Shown piece by piece: positions 3-53,554 of a stretch of DNA of 64,000 nt. The stretch is from Bacteroidota bacterium (GTDB lineage Bacteria; Bacteroidota; Bacteroidia; Bacteroidales; NBLH01). The translations under genes and the position numbers were made by a program. The DNA is taken from positions 124,001-188,000 of the forward strand of contig JANYKN010000089.1 of assembly GCA_025361565.1 (NCBI GenBank). Direction: 5' to 3'. The notes under the pieces are model-generated. The model was given only the letters and a program-made list of their open reading frames with translations. It made no database searches and was not told the origin of the DNA. How positions within the stretch are numbered: the stretch's first letter is position 1; each line of letters starts with the position of its first letter.

Positions 3-968
3 TTTTCCAACGACCCCAATGAATCGTTTCAAACCACAGGAAACAAAAAGGGAAATGCCGAATCGGTTATGATTGCCGGATTATTTGTTTTATATGGACA
101 GGACTTTGTGGATTTATGCAAACAAATTGGCAAAACTGACGAAGCTGCCACAGCACAAATTCATGTAAATGAAATGATTGAAACTGTTAAAAAGCACGGT
201 TGGGATGGTGAATGGTTTGTGAGGGCTTATGATTATTATGGCAAGAAAGTAGGAAGCAATGAAAACGAAGAAGGCAAAATCTTTATCGAATCGCAAGGAT
301 TCTGCACCATGGCCGGAATTGGTGTAGATGATGGAAAAGCAAAAAAAGCGCTTGATTCAGTAAAAGAAAGACTTGATTGTGAATATGGTATTGTACTTAA
401 TAATCCCGCTTTTACAAAATATTACATTGAATATGGCGAAATTTCAACTTATCCTGCCGGATATAAGGAAAATGCTGGAATATTCTGTCACAATAACCCT
501 TGGATTATGATTGGTGAAACCATTATTGGACGCGGTAAAATGGCATTTGACTATTATAAGAAAATTGCACCTTCATATCTTGAAGAAATCAGCGATTTGC
601 ATAAAACAGAACCTTATGTATATGCCCAAATGGTTGCCGGTAAAGATGCTTACAAGCCTGGTGAAGCAAAAAACTCTTGGCTGACAGGGACTGCTGCCTG
701 GAATTACTATGCAATTACTCAATACATTTTAGGTGTTAAACCCGAATATAATGGATTGTCAATAAATCCTTGTATACCCGAAGACTGGAATGGATTTCAA
801 GTTACGCGTAAGTTTAGAAAGGCAGTTTATCATATCACCATTCAAAATCCAAATCATTTATCAAAAGGAATTAAGAAATTAACTGTTGACAATAAAGAAA
901 TTTCGGGTTCTATTGTCCCAATTTTTGATGATAATTTAATTCATGAGGTCATTGTTGTAATGGGCTGA
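3..968 (+). CDS. GH94-family glycoside phosphorylase, C-terminal part (5' end outside window)
   Basis: The reading frame is open from base 3 to the stop, so the ATG at 69 is internal and the gene begins upstream. The segment [15 protein letters not shown] matches the part of GH94 enzymes (cellobiose, laminaribiose or chitobiose phosphorylases) that closely follows the catalytic Asp, which would lie just off the left edge. Later motifs fit the (alpha/alpha)6 barrel and C-terminal beta domain: [30 protein letters not shown] and the [12 protein letters not shown] segment. The family reversibly phosphorolyses beta-linked disaccharides to sugar-1-phosphate in the cytoplasm. The substrate cannot be told from this fragment. 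It may belong to a glycan-use locus upstream; its link to the SusCD genes downstream is only positional. Confidence 0.85.
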
Positions 969-45644: not shown

Positions 45645-46523
45645 ATGAAAATACTAATTGTTGAAGATGATTTTGGTTCAAGAGAGTTTTTATTAAATCT
45701 AATTAAACTTGAAGGATATGATGTTCGACAAGCCGTAAATGGCGAAGAAGGTCTAGAAGTATATAAAGAATACCATCCAAATTTAATTATTTGTGATATA
45801 CAAATGCCAAAAATGGATGGTCTTGAAATGCTTAGCAGACTGCGTGAAGAGAAGGAAGATGTTATTTTTATTATAACTACTGCTTTTGGAAGTGAAGACT
45901 ATGCAATTGAGGCATTGCGCCTTGGAGCCAATAATTATCTTAAAAAGCCGATTGATCGGAAAAGCCTGATTGGACTGGTAAAGAAATATCAGGCTATAAT
46001 TGAAAGCCGCCTTCTTGCACAAAAAGCTGAAGGCCGGGTTCTTGAAAAAGCAATAAAAGTTGAATTTGATACCAATTTTGAACATGTTCCAGCTGTAGTC
46101 AGTCAACTGATTTCAGAAATAACTTTAAAGTATAACGATTCGGATAAAACTAATATAGAACTTGGTCTTGATGAATTGATTGCCAATTCTATTGAACATG
46201 GAAATCTTGAAATTACTTTTGAAGATAAAGTAGAAGCTTCAGATAACAATTCGATGCTTGAGCTTTATGCTAAAAAAATGCAAATTCCCGAAATTGCCAA
46301 CCGAAAGATTATTGTTGAATACATACAAAAGCAAAACTATTCTGAATGGACAATTACTGATGAAGGAAAAGGATTTGATTGGAAATCAATACCAGATCCA
46401 ACACAGGGAGCACAATTAATGGAATTGAACGGACGAGGTATTTTTATAACCAATTTTTTGTTTGATGAATTGGAATATCTGGGCAAAGGGAATCAGGTAA
46501 GGGTGAGAAAATTATTTCAATGA
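45645..46523 (+). CDS. Response regulator with C-terminal RsbW-like ATPase domain
   Basis: A 292-residue protein. The receiver domain (1-120) has the acidic pair Glu-Asp-Asp at 7-9, phospho-acceptor Asp51 (CDIQMPKMDG), the Thr in IITTAFGS and Lys in YLKKPID. A linker helix joins it to a GHKL ATPase domain of the RsbW/SpoIIAB type (about 145-290): ELGLDELIANSIEHGN (N box), ITDEGKGFDW (G1) and LNGRGIFITNFLFDEL (G2). There is no dimerisation/His-phosphotransfer helix, so it is not a histidine kinase. It may act as a phosphorylation-gated serine kinase or anti-sigma antagonist. No STAS partner or phosphatase is adjacent. Confidence 0.85.
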   Translation: MKILIVEDDFGSREFLLNLIKLEGYDVRQAVNGEEGLEVYKEYHPNLIICDIQMPKMDGLEMLSRLREEKEDVIFIITTAFGSEDYAIEALRLGANNYLKKPIDRKSLIGLVKKYQAIIESRLLAQKAEGRVLEKAIKVEFDTNFEHVPAVVSQLISEITLKYNDSDKTNIELGLDELIANSIEHGNLEITFEDKVEASDNNSMLELYAKKMQIPEIANRKIIVEYIQKQNYSEWTITDEGKGFDWKSIPDPTQGAQLMELNGRGIFITNFLFDELEYLGKGNQVRVRKLFQ

Positions 46524-46635: not shown

Positions 46636-46665
46636 TTTGATTTATTAAAATTGTTTCTATATTTG
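46636..46665 (+). promoter_or_regulatory. Promoter of the aromatic amino acid operon
   Basis: TTTG (46636-46639), an 18-nt spacer and TATATTTG (46658-46665) match the Bacteroidota -33/-7 consensus exactly. Expected transcription start near 46670-46673, about 12 nt before the first leader ATG. Confidence 0.7.
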
Positions 46666-46683
46666 CAGCAAATTAGTTAACAA

Positions 46684-46749
46684 ATGAAGAGTTTTTTTGC
46701 ATTTTATTATTTTTATTTTTACTATCCGGAAAGGCTCCTGAGAAGATAA
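46684..46749 (+). CDS. Leader peptide 1 (Phe/Tyr-rich attenuator peptide)
   Basis: A 21-residue ORF, starting ATGAAGAGT and ending TAA at 46747-46749. Codons 4-14 read FFAFYYFYFYY: five Phe and five Tyr among eleven. This is what is expected of a leader peptide sensing charged tRNA-Phe and tRNA-Tyr. It is followed by terminator 46773-46801. The segment CTCCTGAGA (46735-46743), at the end of the ORF, can pair with TCTCAGGGG (46769-46777), which overlaps the 5' arm of the terminator. A ribosome stalled at the Phe/Tyr codons leaves that segment free, so the antiterminator forms and transcription continues. A ribosome that reaches the stop covers it and the terminator forms. Confidence 0.8.
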   Translation: MKSFFAFYYFYFYYPERLLRR

Positions 46750-46772
46750 ATTATTATATGTAATAAAATCTC

Positions 46773-46801
46773 AGGGGTTCCAATTGGAACTCTTTTTTTT
46801 T
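46773..46801 (+). terminator. Attenuator terminator 1
   Basis: AGGGGTTCC (46773-46781), loop AATT, then GGAACTCTT (46786-46794) with two G-T pairs, followed by a run of T through 46801. It overlaps the antiterminator partner TCTCAGGGG, so the two folds exclude each other. Confidence 0.8.
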
Positions 46802-46943
46802 GTATAAATGAGAATAATCTAACAAAATATAATCAGAAATCCCAATTATGAAAGTAATCATTAGCATAAAACTATTTTGTAAACAGTTAGTGGCATGTTT
46901 TTCTGCTTTCTTATTGTCAAATTGGTATTGTTACTGTGGCCAA

Positions 46944-47009
46944 ATGAAAAATTTCTTTTTTTATTTTTATTACTTTACTTATAGTGACCGGGGACTTATA
47001 ATGCTTTGA
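46944..47009 (+). CDS. Leader peptide 2 (Phe/Tyr-rich attenuator peptide)
   Basis: A second 21-residue ORF, with TGA at 47007-47009. Codons 4-13 read FFFYFYYFTY: five Phe and four Tyr among ten. An in-frame ATG at 46848 would extend it upstream by 32 codons, including a Trp and two more Tyr. Downstream, CCGGGG-x-CT-x-ATAA (46988-47001) can pair with TTATAGCCCCGG (47013-47024). This antiterminator uses up the 5' arm of the terminator at 47019-47025. The design repeats that of leader 1, 260 bp upstream. Confidence 0.8.
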   Translation: MKNFFFYFYYFTYSDRGLIML

Positions 47010-47016
47010 ATTTTAT

Positions 47017-47044
47017 AGCCCCGGGTAAATGCCTGGGGTTTTTT
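47017..47044 (+). terminator. Attenuator terminator 2
   Basis: CCCCGGG (47019-47025) pairs with CCTGGGG (47032-47038) with one G-T pair, extended by an A-T pair, then a run of six T. It ends 16 bp before the pheA ATG. Confidence 0.82.
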
Positions 47045-47060
47045 ATTTTATAAATAAATT

Positions 47061-47975
47061 ATGGAAAATTATCTAAAAAAGAAGATTGCAATACAAGGAG
47101 GAGAAGGTTCGTTTCACGAAATAGCTTCCATATTTCACTTTGGTAATAAAAATATCAATACAGTTCCTTTTGAAACTTTTATTGATTTGGTTGATTCTGT
47201 TGAAAACCATGAAGTTGATGGTGGACTTATGGCCATTGAAAATACTGTTGCAGGAAGTTTGATGCCAAATTACGTATTACTTGAAGAGCGTGAAATCTTT
47301 GTTGTTGGTGAAATTCTTCTTCGGATTGAACAAAATCTTTTGGCTCTTGAAGGTCAAAAAATTGAAGATATCAAGGAAGTTCATTCACATCCAATTGCGC
47401 TGATGCAATGTGCAAGGTTTTTTAAAGATTATCCACACATTAAACTTATCGAATCTGATGATACAGCTAATAGTGCACGAAAAATCAGTGAGCAAAATCT
47501 CAAAGGTATTGGAGCTATTGCCAGTCAGAGAGCTGCTGGTTTATTCGGTCTTTCAGTTTTAGAAGCTGGGATTGAAACTAACAAACGCAATTTTACAAGA
47601 TTTTTGGTTCTTAACAGCAAACTTCATAAAAATGGCGAATCACACGGAAAAGAAAATATAAACAAGGCTTCTATTAGTTTTTCATTGATTCACAAAACGG
47701 GCAGTTTATCTAAAGTTTTATCCATTTTTTCATTCTATAATATCAACCTTAGTAAAATACAATCTATTCCAATTATTGGAAAAGAATGGGAGTATCATTT
47801 TATTGTTGATGTGGTATTCGATGGATATGAAATTTATAAACAATCTTTAATCGCCGTTCAACCACTAATTGATAAGTTACAGGTTTTGGGCGAATATTCC
47901 AAAGCAGATAGGTACTATATGTCAAATGAAATTACAACAGATGTTGATGTTCAGGCAATACATGTCAATTTATAA
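47061..47975 (+). CDS. pheA: Prephenate dehydratase
   Basis: Converts prephenate to phenylpyruvate for Phe. The 304 residues have the catalytic PDT domain (1-190): IAIQGGEGSFHEIAS, MAIENTVAGSLMPNY, ASQRAAGLFGLSVL and the catalytic Thr-Arg-Phe in NKRNFTRFLVL. The ACT regulatory domain follows (about 205-285, ISFSLIHKTGSLSKVLSIFS); the usual ESRP motif reads QSIP here. There is no chorismate mutase domain; that activity is fused to DAHP synthase three genes downstream. First gene of the operon behind two tandem attenuators. Confidence 0.95.
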   Translation: MENYLKKKIAIQGGEGSFHEIASIFHFGNKNINTVPFETFIDLVDSVENHEVDGGLMAIENTVAGSLMPNYVLLEEREIFVVGEILLRIEQNLLALEGQKIEDIKEVHSHPIALMQCARFFKDYPHIKLIESDDTANSARKISEQNLKGIGAIASQRAAGLFGLSVLEAGIETNKRNFTRFLVLNSKLHKNGESHGKENINKASISFSLIHKTGSLSKVLSIFSFYNINLSKIQSIPIIGKEWEYHFIVDVVFDGYEIYKQSLIAVQPLIDKLQVLGEYSKADRYYMSNEITTDVDVQAIHVNL

Positions 47976-47995: not shown

Positions 47996-49141
47996 ATGAT
48001 AAAACCAGCTCAAAGGCTATCAACAGTTAAGGAATATTATTTTTCGAATAAACTTAGAGAAATTGATAATTTGCGTGCCTCAGGAATAAATGTGCTAAAT
48101 CTTGGAATTGGAAATCCTGATTTACCACCTTCAGAAGAGACTTTAAATACCTTGCATATAGCTAGTTCTGATAAAAAAAATCATGGCTATCCCAGTTACA
48201 ATGGACACAAATCGTTGAGAGAAGCTTTTTCAAAATGGTACAAAAAATACTTTAAAGTTGATCTCGACAGCGAAAATGAAGTGCTTCCTTTAATAGGTTC
48301 TAAAGAAGGAATTATGCATATCTCTATGGCGTTTTTAAATCCTGGCGATGGTGTATTGATACCAAACCCTTCTTATCCGGCGTATCGAGCTGTTGCTAAC
48401 CTTGTAGGTGCAAAAATAATTGATTTCAATCTTACCGAAGCCAACGGATGGTTTCCTGATTTTGACGAAATAGAAAAAAATGATTTGAGCAATGTAAAAA
48501 TGATGTGGGTCAATTACCCAAATATGCCCACAGGAAAACTGGTAAGCGCAGCAGATTTTAAAAAGCTGGTTGATTTTGGTTTGAAACACAACATTCTTAT
48601 TTGCAACGATAATCCATACAGTTTTATCTTGAATAAAAATTTTTCGAGCATTTTTCAGGTAAATGGTGCAAAAGATATTGCGCTTGAACTTAATTCTTTG
48701 AGCAAATCTCATAATATGGCAGGTTGGAGAATTGGTGTTCTAATTGGAAATCAGACGCTTATAAAATATGTACTAACTGTAAAAAGCAATGTAGATTCAG
48801 GAATGTTTCTACCATTACAACTTGCTGCTGCTCAGGCATTAAATAGTCCTGACAATTGGTATGATGATTTAAACGTTCATTATGAGCGTCGAAGAAAATT
48901 GGCACATCAGATTTTAGATTCCGCAAATTGTACTTATTCTTCAGATCAGGCAGGAATGTTTGTTTGGGCAAAAATTCCTGATGCTTATCAGGATTCAATA
49001 TCATTTACTGACGAATTGCTCGGAAAATATGCTCTTTTTATTACTCCAGGTCAGATTTTTGGAAGCAATGGAAATAGATATATTAGAATTTCGTTGGCAA
49101 GTAAAGAAAATGATTTAATCGAAGCACAAAAACGATTTTAA
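47996..49141 (+). CDS. Class I/II aminotransferase, likely aromatic or prephenate aminotransferase
   Basis: A 381-residue PLP enzyme of fold type I. NVLNLGIGNPDLPPSEETL, PNPSYPAYRAVANLVGA, NYPNMPTGKLVSAADF, ICNDNPYSFI and the Schiff-base Lys in NSLSKSHNMAGWRIGVL are visible; the C-terminal substrate Arg is in NRYIRISLA. Its position between pheA and tyrA points to the last transamination of phenylpyruvate and 4-hydroxyphenylpyruvate (or of prephenate to arogenate). The sequence is like the LL-diaminopimelate/aspartate group, so specificity rests on context. Confidence 0.85.
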   Translation: MIKPAQRLSTVKEYYFSNKLREIDNLRASGINVLNLGIGNPDLPPSEETLNTLHIASSDKKNHGYPSYNGHKSLREAFSKWYKKYFKVDLDSENEVLPLIGSKEGIMHISMAFLNPGDGVLIPNPSYPAYRAVANLVGAKIIDFNLTEANGWFPDFDEIEKNDLSNVKMMWVNYPNMPTGKLVSAADFKKLVDFGLKHNILICNDNPYSFILNKNFSSIFQVNGAKDIALELNSLSKSHNMAGWRIGVLIGNQTLIKYVLTVKSNVDSGMFLPLQLAAAQALNSPDNWYDDLNVHYERRRKLAHQILDSANCTYSSDQAGMFVWAKIPDAYQDSISFTDELLGKYALFITPGQIFGSNGNRYIRISLASKENDLIEAQKRF

Positions 49142-49178: not shown

Positions 49179-50060
49179 ATGTTAAATATTGCAATTATAG
49201 GAACAGGTTTAATAGGTGGCTCAATGGCACTTGATTTAAGAAAACACCCAAAAGTCAAAAAAATAATTGGTGTTGATAATAACCAGGAACATTTATATCG
49301 GGCCAAACAACTTGGAATCATTGATGATTCGCTACCTTTGAAGCAGGCCATTGCTGAATCTAATCTTATAGTTTTGGCAACCCCTGTTGATACAAGCATT
49401 CGTTTATTGCCCGAAATTCTTGCTATTGTTGATAAACAAATAGTATTTGATGTTGGTTCTACAAAGGAAAATATCATCAAGTGTATCGATAATTACCCAA
49501 GAAGAGGACGTTTTGTGGCTTCTCACCCAATGGCAGGAACTGAATATTCTGGCCCCGATGCAGCTTTAAATAACTTGTTTAGAAATAAATCTGTAATGAT
49601 TTGCGATGCCGACGGTTCTGATGATGATGCTTTGGAAAAGGTAAAAGAAATTTATGGTTTTCTGGGGATGAACATCGTTTACATGGATCCAAAACCGCAC
49701 GATTTGCATGCTGCATATGTATCTCATATTTCGCACATTAGTTCTTTTGCATTGTCATTAACAGTGTTGGAAAAAGAAAAAATTGAAAAGAATATACTCG
49801 ATATGGCAAGTGGAGGTTTTGATTCGACAGTTCGTCTGGCAAAGAGTTCTCCTGCAATGTGGACACCAATTTTTATGCAGAATTCAGGGAATATCGTGGA
49901 TGTTCTTAATTCGTATATATCTGTTTTACAGAAATTTAAAAATGTAATTTTGGAACATGATTCATCAAAGATATTTGAAATGATCCATCAATCGAATGAG
50001 ATCAGGAAAGTTCTTGATAAATTTCAACAAAAGGCAGAAAAGGCAGAAATGACAGAATGA
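49179..50060 (+). CDS. tyrA: Prephenate dehydrogenase
   Basis: Oxidative decarboxylation of prephenate to 4-hydroxyphenylpyruvate for Tyr. The 293-residue protein begins LNIAIIGTGLIGGSMALDL, the NAD Rossmann motif, followed by VLATPVDTSI, VFDVGSTKENI, SHPMAGTEYSGP with the catalytic His, and HAAYVSHISHISSFAL with the second conserved His. The helical dimerisation domain follows. No ACT domain is present. Start chosen as the third of three close ATGs (49168, 49174, 49179), the only one in frame. Confidence 0.93.
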   Translation: MLNIAIIGTGLIGGSMALDLRKHPKVKKIIGVDNNQEHLYRAKQLGIIDDSLPLKQAIAESNLIVLATPVDTSIRLLPEILAIVDKQIVFDVGSTKENIIKCIDNYPRRGRFVASHPMAGTEYSGPDAALNNLFRNKSVMICDADGSDDDALEKVKEIYGFLGMNIVYMDPKPHDLHAAYVSHISHISSFALSLTVLEKEKIEKNILDMASGGFDSTVRLAKSSPAMWTPIFMQNSGNIVDVLNSYISVLQKFKNVILEHDSSKIFEMIHQSNEIRKVLDKFQQKAEKAEMTE

Positions 50061-50149: not shown

Positions 50150-51238
50150 ATGAAATTACTATTAGATACAAAACCGATTAAGGAGTGGGGCATTCAATTT
50201 GAAAACCGTCCTGTTGTAATTGCCGGCCCTTGTAGCGCTGAAACTGAAAAACAAGTTCTTGATACTGCTTTTCAGTTAAAAGAAAAGGGAATAACCATCT
50301 TTAGGGCAGGTATTTGGAAACCCAGAACTCGTCCCGGTTACTTTGAAGGGGTTGGCTCAAAGGGACTGGCATGGCTCAAAAAAGTGAAAGAAGAAACGGG
50401 TTTACTTGTTGCAACTGAAGTAGCCTCTGAAAAGCATGTATATGAAGCACTTAAATATGGAATTGATATACTCTGGGTTGGTGCACGTTCTACTGCAAAT
50501 CCTTTTGTTGTTCAAGATATTGCAGATGCACTTAAAGGTATCGATATTCCAATTTTGGTAAAAAATCCAATCAATCCCGATTTGGAATTATGGAAAGGAG
50601 CGATTGAAAGAATCCATGCTGCTGGAATTTCCAGAATTGGTGCTATTCATCGTGGTTTTTCAAGTTATGGAAAAACAGTTTACCGGAATTTACCAACCTG
50701 GCAGCTTCCAATTGACTTAAAAACTGATTTCCCTAATATTCCAATGATTAATGATCCAAGCCACATTGCTGGTAAAAGGGAATTGTTATTTGAAATTATA
50801 CAGAAAGCAATGGACTTGAATTTTGATGGTTTAATTATTGAATCACATTGCGATCCCTCTTGTGCTCTAAGTGATGCCGCTCAACAAGTAACACCGAATG
50901 ATTTGGATAAAATGTTAAAGTCGATCATCATTCGGAATCCAAATGGCCAATCAAAGGAATCGTATCAGGAATTGAAAGAATATAGGGCACAAATTGATAG
51001 CTTTGACAAAATGTTGCTCAATCTTCTTGAAGAAAGGATGGAAATTGTTAAAAAAATAGGGCGTTTTAAAAAGAATAATAACCTGACTATTTTGCAATCA
51101 ACCAGGTGGGAACAGATTATTGAAAAAAATCTTGAAGAGGGATCTAGCCGGGGTTTTAGCGAGTTATTTATTAACAGGCTATTTAAAGCTATTCACCAGG
51201 AATCAATAGAATATCAAACAAAAATAATGAATGAATAA
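50150..51238 (+). CDS. Bifunctional DAHP synthase / chorismate mutase
   Basis: First step of the shikimate pathway joined to the branch-point mutase. Residues 1-265 are a type I-beta DAHP synthase: VVIAGPCSAETEKQVLDTA, FRAGIWKPRTRPGYFEGVG, VGARSTANPFVVQ, LVKNPINPDLELW, IHRGFSSYG, INDPSHIAGKR and ESHCDPSCALSDA, holding the phosphoenolpyruvate and metal ligands. Residues about 275-362 are an AroQ-class chorismate mutase helix bundle (YRAQIDSFDKMLLNLLEERM, IGRFKKNNNL). This fusion is common in Bacteroidota, and the mutase part often gives feedback control. It overlaps aroA by 8 bp. Confidence 0.93.
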   Translation: MKLLLDTKPIKEWGIQFENRPVVIAGPCSAETEKQVLDTAFQLKEKGITIFRAGIWKPRTRPGYFEGVGSKGLAWLKKVKEETGLLVATEVASEKHVYEALKYGIDILWVGARSTANPFVVQDIADALKGIDIPILVKNPINPDLELWKGAIERIHAAGISRIGAIHRGFSSYGKTVYRNLPTWQLPIDLKTDFPNIPMINDPSHIAGKRELLFEIIQKAMDLNFDGLIIESHCDPSCALSDAAQQVTPNDLDKMLKSIIIRNPNGQSKESYQELKEYRAQIDSFDKMLLNLLEERMEIVKKIGRFKKNNNLTILQSTRWEQIIEKNLEEGSSRGFSELFINRLFKAIHQESIEYQTKIMNE

Positions 51239-52478
51239 AACGGTTTCGAAATCAGTTATTCAAGGTACTTTAATTGCTCCAACTTCGAAAAGTGCATTAC
51301 AAAGGTTGATTGTCGCTAGTATTTTATCAAAAGGTAAGTCGATAATTAATTTTGAATCGATGAGCGAAGATGCCGAAGCTGTTTTAGGTATTGCCAAAAG
51401 TTTAGGTGCCCAATTTATTTTAAGTGAAAATAGAATTGAAATTGATGGCGGAATTCAAAATCCTTCAGAACAGATATACATCGGTGAATCTGGACTGGGC
51501 CTAAGAATGATTGCACCAGTTTTGGCATCTACCCATTATTCGTTTGAAATTTTGGGAATGGGAAGCCTTTTAAATCGACCTCTAGGTTTTGTTGTCGATA
51601 CACTTTTAGCTTGTGGTGTCAGAGCAGAGAGCACTTGTGGAGGTTTACCGCTTAAATTAAATGGACCCATTCAAACCAATAAAGTTTTAATTGATGGTTC
51701 GGTTGGATCGCAACTTCTTACGGGTTTTTTGTTTGCTGCCCCAATTTTAAACAGAGATTTTGAAATTGAAGTGACCAATCTCAAGAGTAAGCCTTATATT
51801 GATCTTACTATTAGTGTATTGCAGGAATTTGGAATAGAGATTTCAAATTATACATATGAAAGATTTTTTATCAACGGTGGTCAATCATACAAAGCTTGTA
51901 ATTGTTATGCCGAAGGTGATTGGAGTGGAGCTGCTTTTGTTCTTGTTGCTGCTGCAATTGCAGGTGAAATCTGCTTGACTGGAATTAATAATCATTCTTT
52001 GCAGGGTGATAAGCAAATAGTGGATGTGATTAAGGCTTGTGGGGCTCAAGTAATTGAATCGGAGAATGAAATATTTGTTAAAAAAGATAAATTATTGGCG
52101 TTTGAATTTGATGCCACTGATGTTCCTGATTTATTTCCACCTTTGGTTTCATTAGCCGTAAATTGTGTTGGAAAGTCTTATATAAAAGGTGTAAGCAGGC
52201 TTAAACACAAGGAAAGTGATAGAGCAGTAACTTTACAGACTGAATTTGCAAAACTTGGGTCCAATATCCAGATTAAAGATGATGTTATGATTGTGGATGG
52301 CGTGCAATTGATTGGTAATCAGGTTTATTCACATCACGATCATCGCATTGCAATGGCTCTGGCTGTTGCAGCATTAACCATTGAAAAAGACGTGGTAATC
52401 GAATATAGCGAAGCAGTTGGAAAATCCTGGCCAGACTTTTTTGAAAAATTAGAACTTATTGGAGCAAAGGTAAAGTGA
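51231..52478 (+). CDS. aroA: 3-phosphoshikimate 1-carboxyvinyltransferase (EPSP synthase)
   Basis: Sixth step of the shikimate pathway, 415 residues. The substrate-binding motif is IAPTSKSALQRLIVASIL. The segment that is usually GNAGTxxR reads GESGLGLRM, a notable departure in the region that shapes the phosphoenolpyruvate/glyphosate site. Other motifs are normal: FDATDVPDLFPPL with the catalytic Asp, RLKHKESDRAVTLQTEFAKL, HHDHRIAMALAVAAL and GKSWPDFF. It begins inside the end of the DAHP synthase gene, so translation is coupled. Confidence 0.94.
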   Translation: MNKTVSKSVIQGTLIAPTSKSALQRLIVASILSKGKSIINFESMSEDAEAVLGIAKSLGAQFILSENRIEIDGGIQNPSEQIYIGESGLGLRMIAPVLASTHYSFEILGMGSLLNRPLGFVVDTLLACGVRAESTCGGLPLKLNGPIQTNKVLIDGSVGSQLLTGFLFAAPILNRDFEIEVTNLKSKPYIDLTISVLQEFGIEISNYTYERFFINGGQSYKACNCYAEGDWSGAAFVLVAAAIAGEICLTGINNHSLQGDKQIVDVIKACGAQVIESENEIFVKKDKLLAFEFDATDVPDLFPPLVSLAVNCVGKSYIKGVSRLKHKESDRAVTLQTEFAKLGSNIQIKDDVMIVDGVQLIGNQVYSHHDHRIAMALAVAALTIEKDVVIEYSEAVGKSWPDFFEKLELIGAKVK

Positions 52479-52561: not shown

Positions 52562-53554
52562 ATGAATAGCTTCGGTCGAAAATTTAAAATCAGTATATTT
52601 GGGGAATCTCATGGAAAGTCTGTTGGTGTTACCATTGATGGTTGTCCTCCTGGAATAAAACTCGATGAAGCCGATTTTTTAAGTGATTTGGATCGCCGAA
52701 AGAGCGGAGCAAAAGGAACTACGCCTAGACAGGAAACGGATTTACCTGAAATAATAAGTGGTGTTTTTAATGGCTTTTCAACTGGTGCACCTATTACTAT
52801 TATTTTTAAAAATGAAGATACCCGTTCAAAAGACTATTCAAAATTAAAAGAACATCCAAGGCCTGGGCATGCAGATTTTACTGCATTTAAAAAATACAAT
52901 GGATTTAATGATTATAGGGGTGGAGGCCATTTTTCAGCTAGATTAACCTTGGCTCTTGTAAGTGCCGGAGTGGTTGCAAAAAAATTAATTTCGCCAATCG
53001 ATATTCGAGCTCAGCTGATTAGTGTTCATGGAAATTCAAATATTGAACAGGCAATTGATGATGCAATAAGTAAAGGTGAGTCTGTAGGTGCTATTGTTGA
53101 ATGTATAGCTTCAAATTTGCCTGTTGGATTGGGCGAGCCATTTTTCGATTCAGTTGAATCGGTGATCAGTCATCTTGTTTTTGCTATTCCGGCCATTAAA
53201 GGAATTGAATTTGGTTCGGGCTTTAAAGCAGCGCAAATGTATGGGAGTGAACACAATGATTTGATCCTCGATGAATCTGGAAAAACATCATCGAACCATG
53301 CAGCTGGTATCAACGGTGGTATCACAAATGGAAATGAAATTGTTTTCAGGATAGCAGTAAAACCTACTTCCAGCATCTCAAAAGCACAGGAGACTTTTAA
53401 TTTAAAAACTGGAAAATTAGAACAATTAATGATAGGAGGAAGGCACGATGTGTGTGTGGCACTTCGGGTACCGGTTATTCTTGAAGCTGTTACTGCAATT
53501 GCTTTGGCCGATTTTTTCCTAATTTCAGGACTAAATCATTTAACTAATACCTAA
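52562..53554 (+). CDS. aroC: Chorismate synthase
   Basis: Last step of the common aromatic pathway, making chorismate from EPSP with reduced FMN. The 330 residues include the signature GESHGKSVGVTIDGCPPG (catalytic His), RRKSGAKGTTPRQETD, RPGHADFTAFKKYN with the second conserved His, DYRGGGHFSARLT, and the late GGRHDVCVALRVPVILEA. The protein is about 20-30 residues shorter than many homologues but has all motifs. It ends the operon; no clear terminator separates it from the convergent kinase gene at 53587. Confidence 0.96.
   Translation: MNSFGRKFKISIFGESHGKSVGVTIDGCPPGIKLDEADFLSDLDRRKSGAKGTTPRQETDLPEIISGVFNGFSTGAPITIIFKNEDTRSKDYSKLKEHPRPGHADFTAFKKYNGFNDYRGGGHFSARLTLALVSAGVVAKKLISPIDIRAQLISVHGNSNIEQAIDDAISKGESVGAIVECIASNLPVGLGEPFFDSVESVISHLVFAIPAIKGIEFGSGFKAAQMYGSEHNDLILDESGKTSSNHAAGINGGITNGNEIVFRIAVKPTSSISKAQETFNLKTGKLEQLMIGGRHDVCVALRVPVILEAVTAIALADFFLISGLNHLTNT

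Follow-up and report, generated by a model that had tools for sequence, protein, structure and literature searches.

Classical ribosome-mediated attenuators of amino-acid operons include trpL, hisL, and pheL of Escherichia coli. The assumption in the initial annotation of the locus described here that classical attenuation uses one leader per operon holds as a general rule, but not without exception, since the mgtCBR operon of Salmonella has tandem attenuators (PMC3641672). In the relevant literature, tandem switches for the same ligand are expected to behave pseudo-cooperatively, as stated for riboswitches (PMC12452182), the hyper-sensitivity of single-leader attenuation is modelled (PMC1183508), strong indications of attenuation by leader peptides upstream of amino-acid operons are given for Flavobacterium psychrophilum (PMC9723704), and a candidate Phe-codon uORF is described before aroF in Acholeplasma (PMC8632094). 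Among the titles and abstracts listed in a literature search that covered few subscription journals, there were no tandem leader attenuators for the same amino acid and no attenuation of pheA in Bacteroidota.

The double Phe/Tyr switch considered here comes from the genome of an uncultured Bacteroidota bacterium, where both units stand ahead of genes for Phe and Tyr biosynthesis within a stretch of 64,000 nucleotides that was analyzed as a whole (the window). Both units, their pairing and conservation, a single promoter motif, a short hand-over from one unit to the next, and recurrence in other genomes can be read from the DNA, and they make it highly probable that the locus comprises two full attenuators of the ribosome-mediated transcriptional type, placed one after the other on a single leader RNA and responding to the same signal (charged tRNA-Phe and tRNA-Tyr).

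Layout of the leader region and the operon

Between positions 46636 and 47060, the promoter is followed by leader 1, antiterminator 1, terminator 1, leader 2, antiterminator 2, and terminator 2, and then by pheA (Table 1); the coordinates first assigned to these elements proved correct to the base when the sequence was read again. The promoter-like element is presumably of the Bacteroidota type, for which the consensus is TTG/TTTG-TAnnTTTG. The antiterminator 1 duplex (CTCCTGAGA with TCTCAGGGG) has 9 pairs, one of them G-U. An alternative start of leader 2 (ATG 46944) gives a 21-codon reading, MKNFFFYFYYFTYSDRGLIML, with the same stop and with nine Phe or Tyr codons in codons 4-13; the Phe/Tyr run itself begins at 46953. 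Terminator 2 ends 16 nt before the pheA start codon.

Table 1. Features of the tandem leader region and the downstream operon (positions within the window; F/Y, Phe or Tyr codons)
Feature	Coordinates	Strand	Evidence or remark
Promoter-like element, Bacteroidota-type: TTTG (46636-46639), 18 nt, TATATTTG (46658-46665)	46636..46665	+	Sequence; TAnnTTTG kept in genus
Leader ORF 1, MKSFFAFYYFYFYYPERLLRR, ATG 46684, stop 46749, 21 codons	46684..46749	+	Ten F/Y, codons 4-14
Antiterminator 1, 5' arm CTCCTGAGA, inside end of leader 1	46735..46743	+	Duplex p=0.003 vs shuffled arms
Antiterminator 1, 3' arm TCTCAGGGG, shared with terminator 1	46769..46777	+	Pairing, folding, genus comparison
Intrinsic terminator 1, hairpin 46775-46792, nine T 46793-46801	46773..46801	+	Core -8.3 kcal/mol
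Leader ORF 2, preferred reading, ATG 46848, 53 codons, F/Y run near C terminus, stop 47009	46848..47009	+	Tandem-locus comparison
Antiterminator 2, 5' arm, inside leader ORF 2	46988..47001	+	Duplex p=0.003 vs shuffled arms
Antiterminator 2, 3' arm, shared with terminator 2	47013..47024	+	Duplex test, genus pairing
Intrinsic terminator 2, hairpin 47019-47038, six T 47039-47044	47017..47044	+	Core -13.9 kcal/mol
pheA, prephenate dehydratase, ATG 47061	47061..47975	+	PF00800 2e-52
Class I/II aminotransferase, probably aromatic	47996..49141	+	PF00155; substrate inferred from operon
tyrA, prephenate dehydrogenase	49179..50060	+	PF02153, PF20463; NF006307 over cut-off
DAHP synthase-chorismate mutase fusion	50150..51238	+	PF00793 + PF01817
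aroA, EPSP synthase	51231..52478	+	TIGR01356 over cut-off
aroC, chorismate synthase	52562..53554	+	NF003793 + TIGR00033 over cut-offs

The six genes of the operon share one strand up to 53554, and the next long ORF lies on the opposite strand. The amino acids encoded in the runs of both leaders, Phe and Tyr, are those that the operon produces, in line with the proposed match between sensing and products. For the aminotransferase, whose aromatic role is probable from its place in the operon, the nearest models are those of LL-DAP (LL-diaminopimelate) aminotransferases, below their cut-offs. Directly upstream of the leader region, a response regulator fused to a HATPase_c_2 domain is encoded on the same strand (45645-46523); no connection with the operon was apparent.

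In the same genome, hisG is preceded by a single leader, MTKTHSHIHHHHLLLSGELFV, and one terminator; this His leader (L225, C109) lies ~95-160 nt before the gene with a promoter-like TATATTTG. A scan of the 420 nt before the one chorismate-binding gene, three of four HMGL-like genes, and pheS gave no comparable leader with a terminator. Among the genes covered, the tandem arrangement is thus not the rule in this genome. A weak DNA match (L002, 88% over 33 nt), considered as a second Phe/Tyr leader elsewhere in the genome, seems to lie inside a coding stretch of the opposite strand and was taken as chance.

We infer translation of both leaders, ribosome stalling, termination, and a steeper response to shortage, which would come about as follows. 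RNA polymerase would start at the promoter and transcribe leader 1. With Phe and Tyr ample, the ribosome would reach the stop of leader 1 and mask the upstream arm of antiterminator 1, and transcription would end at terminator 1; with Phe or Tyr short, the ribosome would stall in the Phe/Tyr run and leave the arm free, antiterminator 1 would form, and the polymerase would pass. A second ribosome would load on leader 2 just past terminator 1, and the same choice would be repeated at terminator 2. Read-through into the operon would be the product of two read-through probabilities, so that leak would be multiplied down and logarithmic sensitivities would add, giving a steeper (pseudo-cooperative) response, with a lower maximum as the price since both races must be won. 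Redundancy for one signal, yielding low leak and a steeper response, appears to be the best reading of the arrangement, and the earlier suggestion that two leaders would tighten control is a reasonable one.

Pairing, conservation, and the probable signal of each unit

In both units an antiterminator overlaps an intrinsic terminator, with an antiterminator arm near the leader stop, and both leaders contain a run coding for products of the operon, as in ribosome-mediated attenuators. The segment 46724-46801 folds as antiterminator 1 and gives terminator 1 when the 5' arm is removed. The two-strand energy of antiterminator 2 is -15.9 kcal/mol (loop cost excluded) versus -13.9 kcal/mol for the core of terminator 2. 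The fold of 46980-47044 favors terminator 2 although the segment includes the competing arm, which counts against the best explanation and means that the choice in unit 2 would have to be kinetic. Of the 139 units compared across loci, 126 have a stretch around the leader stop that pairs with the 5' half of the terminator better than shuffled stretches do at p<0.05 (97 of them at p<0.01); in this test 23 of the 24 units from 12 tandem loci reached p<0.05, the miss being unit 2 of L162 (p = 0.106).

Seven genomes of the genus, including that of the window, were sampled, and the search gave no pheA match in one (G001). The other six all possess both units, with Phe/Tyr runs and alternative stems kept, as the proposal of tandem attenuation leads one to expect of close relatives. 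Since MAFFT alignments (A1 and A2) shift the antiterminator arms between subgroups, pairs were counted on hand-anchored helices, a procedure biased towards pairing. Counted in this way over the six members, terminator 1 has 42 of 42 cells paired and antiterminator 1 has 50 of 54, each with one pair changed on both sides (in antiterminator 1, G-C in two members and A-T in four), and terminator 2 has 41 of 42 cells paired with two pairs changed on both sides. The core of antiterminator 2 (6 pairs) is paired in 36 of 36 cells with no two-sided change, which counts against the best explanation. All six members have TAnnTTTG before leader 1, with TTG upstream in the five whose contig extends there, and leader 1 ends within the antiterminator arm or a few bases off. 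The first codon position is T in 54 of 60 codons of the leader 1 run, the six exceptions all falling in one Ala/Thr column, and in 47 of 48 codons of the leader 2 run. Bases vary at codon positions 1, 2, and 3 in 1, 8, and 3 of the 10 codons of the first run and in 1, 6, and 5 of the 8 codons of the second, a pattern concentrated at positions 2 and 3 which indicates that aromatic residues are kept more than bases. The six genomes are few and related, so more weight is placed on the wider set of loci below.

Both Phe and Tyr occur in the 12-codon span of 147 of 150 single leaders, and the tandem pairs have similar Phe fractions, 0.53 for unit 1 and 0.56 for unit 2 (Wilcoxon p = 0.38, 25 pairs). 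The initial annotation had proposed that the two units answer different levels or ratios of Phe and Tyr; with Phe fractions that do not differ between the units of the 25 loci, the part concerning ratios finds no support. A division of labor, with one unit tuned to Phe and the other to Tyr or the two tuned to different depths of starvation, is accordingly unlikely, and the comparison bears on codon make-up and not on thresholds that terminator strength could set. Strength is indeed unequal between the units in the genus (about -8 kcal/mol for terminator 1 and -10 to -18 kcal/mol for terminator 2), a difference that favors such a division, as do Trp codons in the leader 1 run of four of the six members and the leader 2 run of two. 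These Trp codons are found in leader 1 of L005, L006, L007, and L008 and in leader 2 of L007 and L008, and are absent from the runs of the window; in the four members Trp sensing by leader 1 is possible.

The weakness of terminator 1 in the genus means that unit 1 may terminate only partly, and it favors a further alternative, in which only the pheA-proximal unit 2 regulates and unit 1 is left over, as a relic or a degenerating copy. That 150 of the 175 unit-bearing upstreams surveyed manage with a single unit speaks for the same alternative and also counts against the best explanation. However, unit 1 adjoins the promoter motif and keeps its Phe/Tyr run as well as its paired terminator and antiterminator (42/42 and 50/54 cells), with a two-sided pair change in each, and a relic at this position is therefore improbable. 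Regulation by both units in response to one signal remains the preferred reading.

Probable transcriptional linkage and distribution in Bacteroidota

The promoter motif TTG-17..23-TAnnTTTG was sought at most 120 nt before the last ATG of each leader. Among single units it was present in 78 of 149, among first units in 15 of 24, and among second units in 1 of 25; one further unit of each of the first two kinds lay too close to the start of its stretch to be scored. In the set collapsed for common sequence the counts are 73 of 142, 15 of 23, and 1 of 24. The sole second unit with the motif is that of L206, and the second unit of the window is without it. The motif as written is also absent from 80 of 173 first and single units, so that its absence before second units is a strong contrast and no proof for any one locus. 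A general sigma-70 promoter scan found 27 sites versus 30.3 expected in shuffles and was uninformative.

The start of leader 2 bears on the same point. Its first in-frame ATG lies 7-55 nt past the terminator 1 hairpin in all 25 tandem loci, the longest gap being that of the window (55 nt, to ATG 46848), and the 208 codons from first ATG to Phe/Tyr span contain no stop in the leader frame, compared with 25 and 16 stops in the two other frames. Leader 2 of G003 has a single in-frame ATG, which lies 16 nt after the terminator 1 hairpin. Because of this position, the open frame, and the G003 start, ATG 46848 is preferred over 46944 for the window. Leader 2 is thus likely to comprise 53 codons, and the 21 codons originally given for it are probably too few.

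The near-absence of the motif and the 16-nt gap in G003 indicate that unit 2 is probably reached by read-through of unit 1 and has no promoter of its own. The alternative of two separate transcription units, with leader 1 producing a short RNA and a second promoter past terminator 1 serving leader 2 and the operon, would find space in the 151 nt between the terminator 1 hairpin and ATG 46944 in the window; with the motif before one second unit (L206) as against 15 of 24 first units, and with so little room in G003, it is very improbable. The original description as two attenuators in series ahead of an aromatic operon is sustained by conserved, partly compensatory arms and by a unit 2 that lacks the promoter motif in the window and in all tandem loci except L206.

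To be detected as a unit, a locus had to contain an ORF with at least 6 Phe/Tyr codons in 12, followed by a terminator of the hairpin-plus-T type. The best 80 of 528 candidate loci and further genome draws gave 213 pooled pheA upstreams, after leaving out near-copies (L035 and L036 of L007 and L008), L202 (identical to L104), and exact copies. One unit was found in 150 upstreams, two in 25, and none in 38; collapsing by common 60-mer left 204 upstreams with 143, 24, and 37, respectively, and 6 of these 37 are stretches of <300 nt. The tandem arrangement is therefore present before pheA in related Bacteroidota, both in the genus and in other, distant lineages. The 25 tandem loci comprise the six genus members with pheA, ten in f117 (the family holding the Saprospiraceae locus L104), seven in f104, and one each at L012 and L029. 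A looser spacing gave ten doubles in f117, of which L200 is absent from the final set. Unit 1 of L012 is weak (6 Phe/Tyr codons, -7.7 kcal/mol) and may be a relic, and some 'single' Saprospiraceae may be doubles with a weaker terminator under the cut. The f104 and f117 draws were centered on known tandem genomes and so do not give frequencies valid for the class as a whole; drawing from the class itself added 57 new upstreams, 3 of them with the tandem (L124, L155, and L162). At the Saprospiraceae locus L104 (JAKVCU010000001.1), both leaders, 280-370 and 128-190 nt before pheA, end in FYFFYGQP, a common end that suggests duplication. In L053, from a record titled Lentisphaerae, a short ORF (MITMTALRYYGTSYAFRFSG) with a strong terminator lies in G+C-rich DNA 108-171 nt before pheA; uncounted by the detector, it may be a Phe/Tyr leader outside Bacteroidota.

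Chance, i.e., A+T-rich DNA that reads as Phe/Tyr beside ordinary terminators, could draw on codons made only of T, A, and C in a window of 32% G+C (25% upstream of pheA), but its probability is negligible given that dinucleotide shuffles of 153 upstreams (n=459) yielded 1 single unit and no doubles, that one of 406 half-overlapping window tiles on both strands held two units, at the finding itself, that the f104 doubles sit in tandem upstreams of 48-60% G+C, and that the first base of the run codons is T (54/60 and 47/48) while positions 2 and 3 vary. The 153 upstreams, each 600 nt or longer, come from a set of 164 distinct ones (115 with one unit, 14 with two, and 35 with none).

A tree of PheA (FastTree; one short protein, with long branches) covered the 159 of the 175 unit-bearing upstreams that had enough protein. 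By parsimony, this tree needs at least 10 switches between the single and the tandem state, as against 23.6 with shuffled labels, and branches with support >=95 force 5 of the 10. We read this as several gains of the tandem, with losses as the alternative, gain and loss not being told apart on the tree. More likely than not, phe/tyr operons of Bacteroidota have repeatedly gained tandem ribosome attenuators for one signal (in this genus, in f117, in f104, and at L012 and L029), a recurrent design in which leader 2 directly behind terminator 1 would impose two successive races between translation and transcription. Such a design would be a cascade of natural origin, sharpening the response to an amino acid with no protein regulator involved. 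Two same-signal attenuators in series would then be an apparently repeated evolutionary way to sharpen an RNA switch, and the occurrence in nature of one switch in both single and tandem form would make the predicted gain in the sensitivity of attenuation measurable. The survey also documents predicted Phe/Tyr leader attenuation across Bacteroidota, a phylum for which the papers listed in the literature search gave only a short mention (PMC9723704).

Comparison with described attenuators

At the gathering score, no Rfam family is found in the window. Below the cut-off, full-length matches to RF01859 (Phe_leader) occur in the right place and on the right strand at unit 1 of the window (33.6 bits), L159 (39.3 bits; here pheA is on the minus strand and the match is on the strand of the leader), unit 2 of L198 (35.7 bits), and unit 1 of L203 (40.0 bits); no match reaches the gathering score of 55, and unit 2 of the window gave no row up to E = 10. 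Phe/Tyr units before pheA also match Thr_leader (L143, 33.1 bits) and Leu_leader (L024, 33.8 bits), both below cut-off, and these cross-matches indicate that the Rfam likeness is one of layout. A T-box riboswitch was considered and rejected, as the window has no Rfam match that reaches a gathering score. The Bacteroides sRNA family RF04180 (BTnc231) matches unit 1 of L203 at 28.8 bits and weakly 9 of 119 genomes of the order, none over the cut-off; the weak matches in G029 and G036 are not on the pheA contig, and the family was dropped.

The locus resembles the classical attenuators and RF01859 in having a leader ORF rich in product codons, mutually exclusive antiterminator and terminator, and a terminator just before the first gene; it differs in having two full units in series and runs that mix Phe and Tyr. 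With mgtCBR (PMC3641672) it shares two leader ORFs in one leader RNA (mgtM and mgtP in Salmonella), each acting there on transcription elongation and here probably doing so. The signals of mgtCBR differ, however (ATP and proline), and its stem-loops are unlike intrinsic terminators (PMC3641672), whereas both units here hold codons for the same amino acids (p = 0.38), so that two distinct signals are not seen in the codon content, and an intrinsic terminator belongs to each unit. Bacillota are enriched in riboswitches and T-boxes that stand in tandem (PMC12452182); these are likewise two transcriptional switches for the same signal in series, but their sensing relies on an RNA aptamer or on the binding of tRNA, whereas sensing here would be by leader peptide. 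The leaders of Flavobacterium psychrophilum differ in that the passage concerned (PMC9723704) gives no tandem arrangement. Leader attenuation as such is already known; the recurrent tandem of leader peptides for the same signal is, judged by the papers listed, new.
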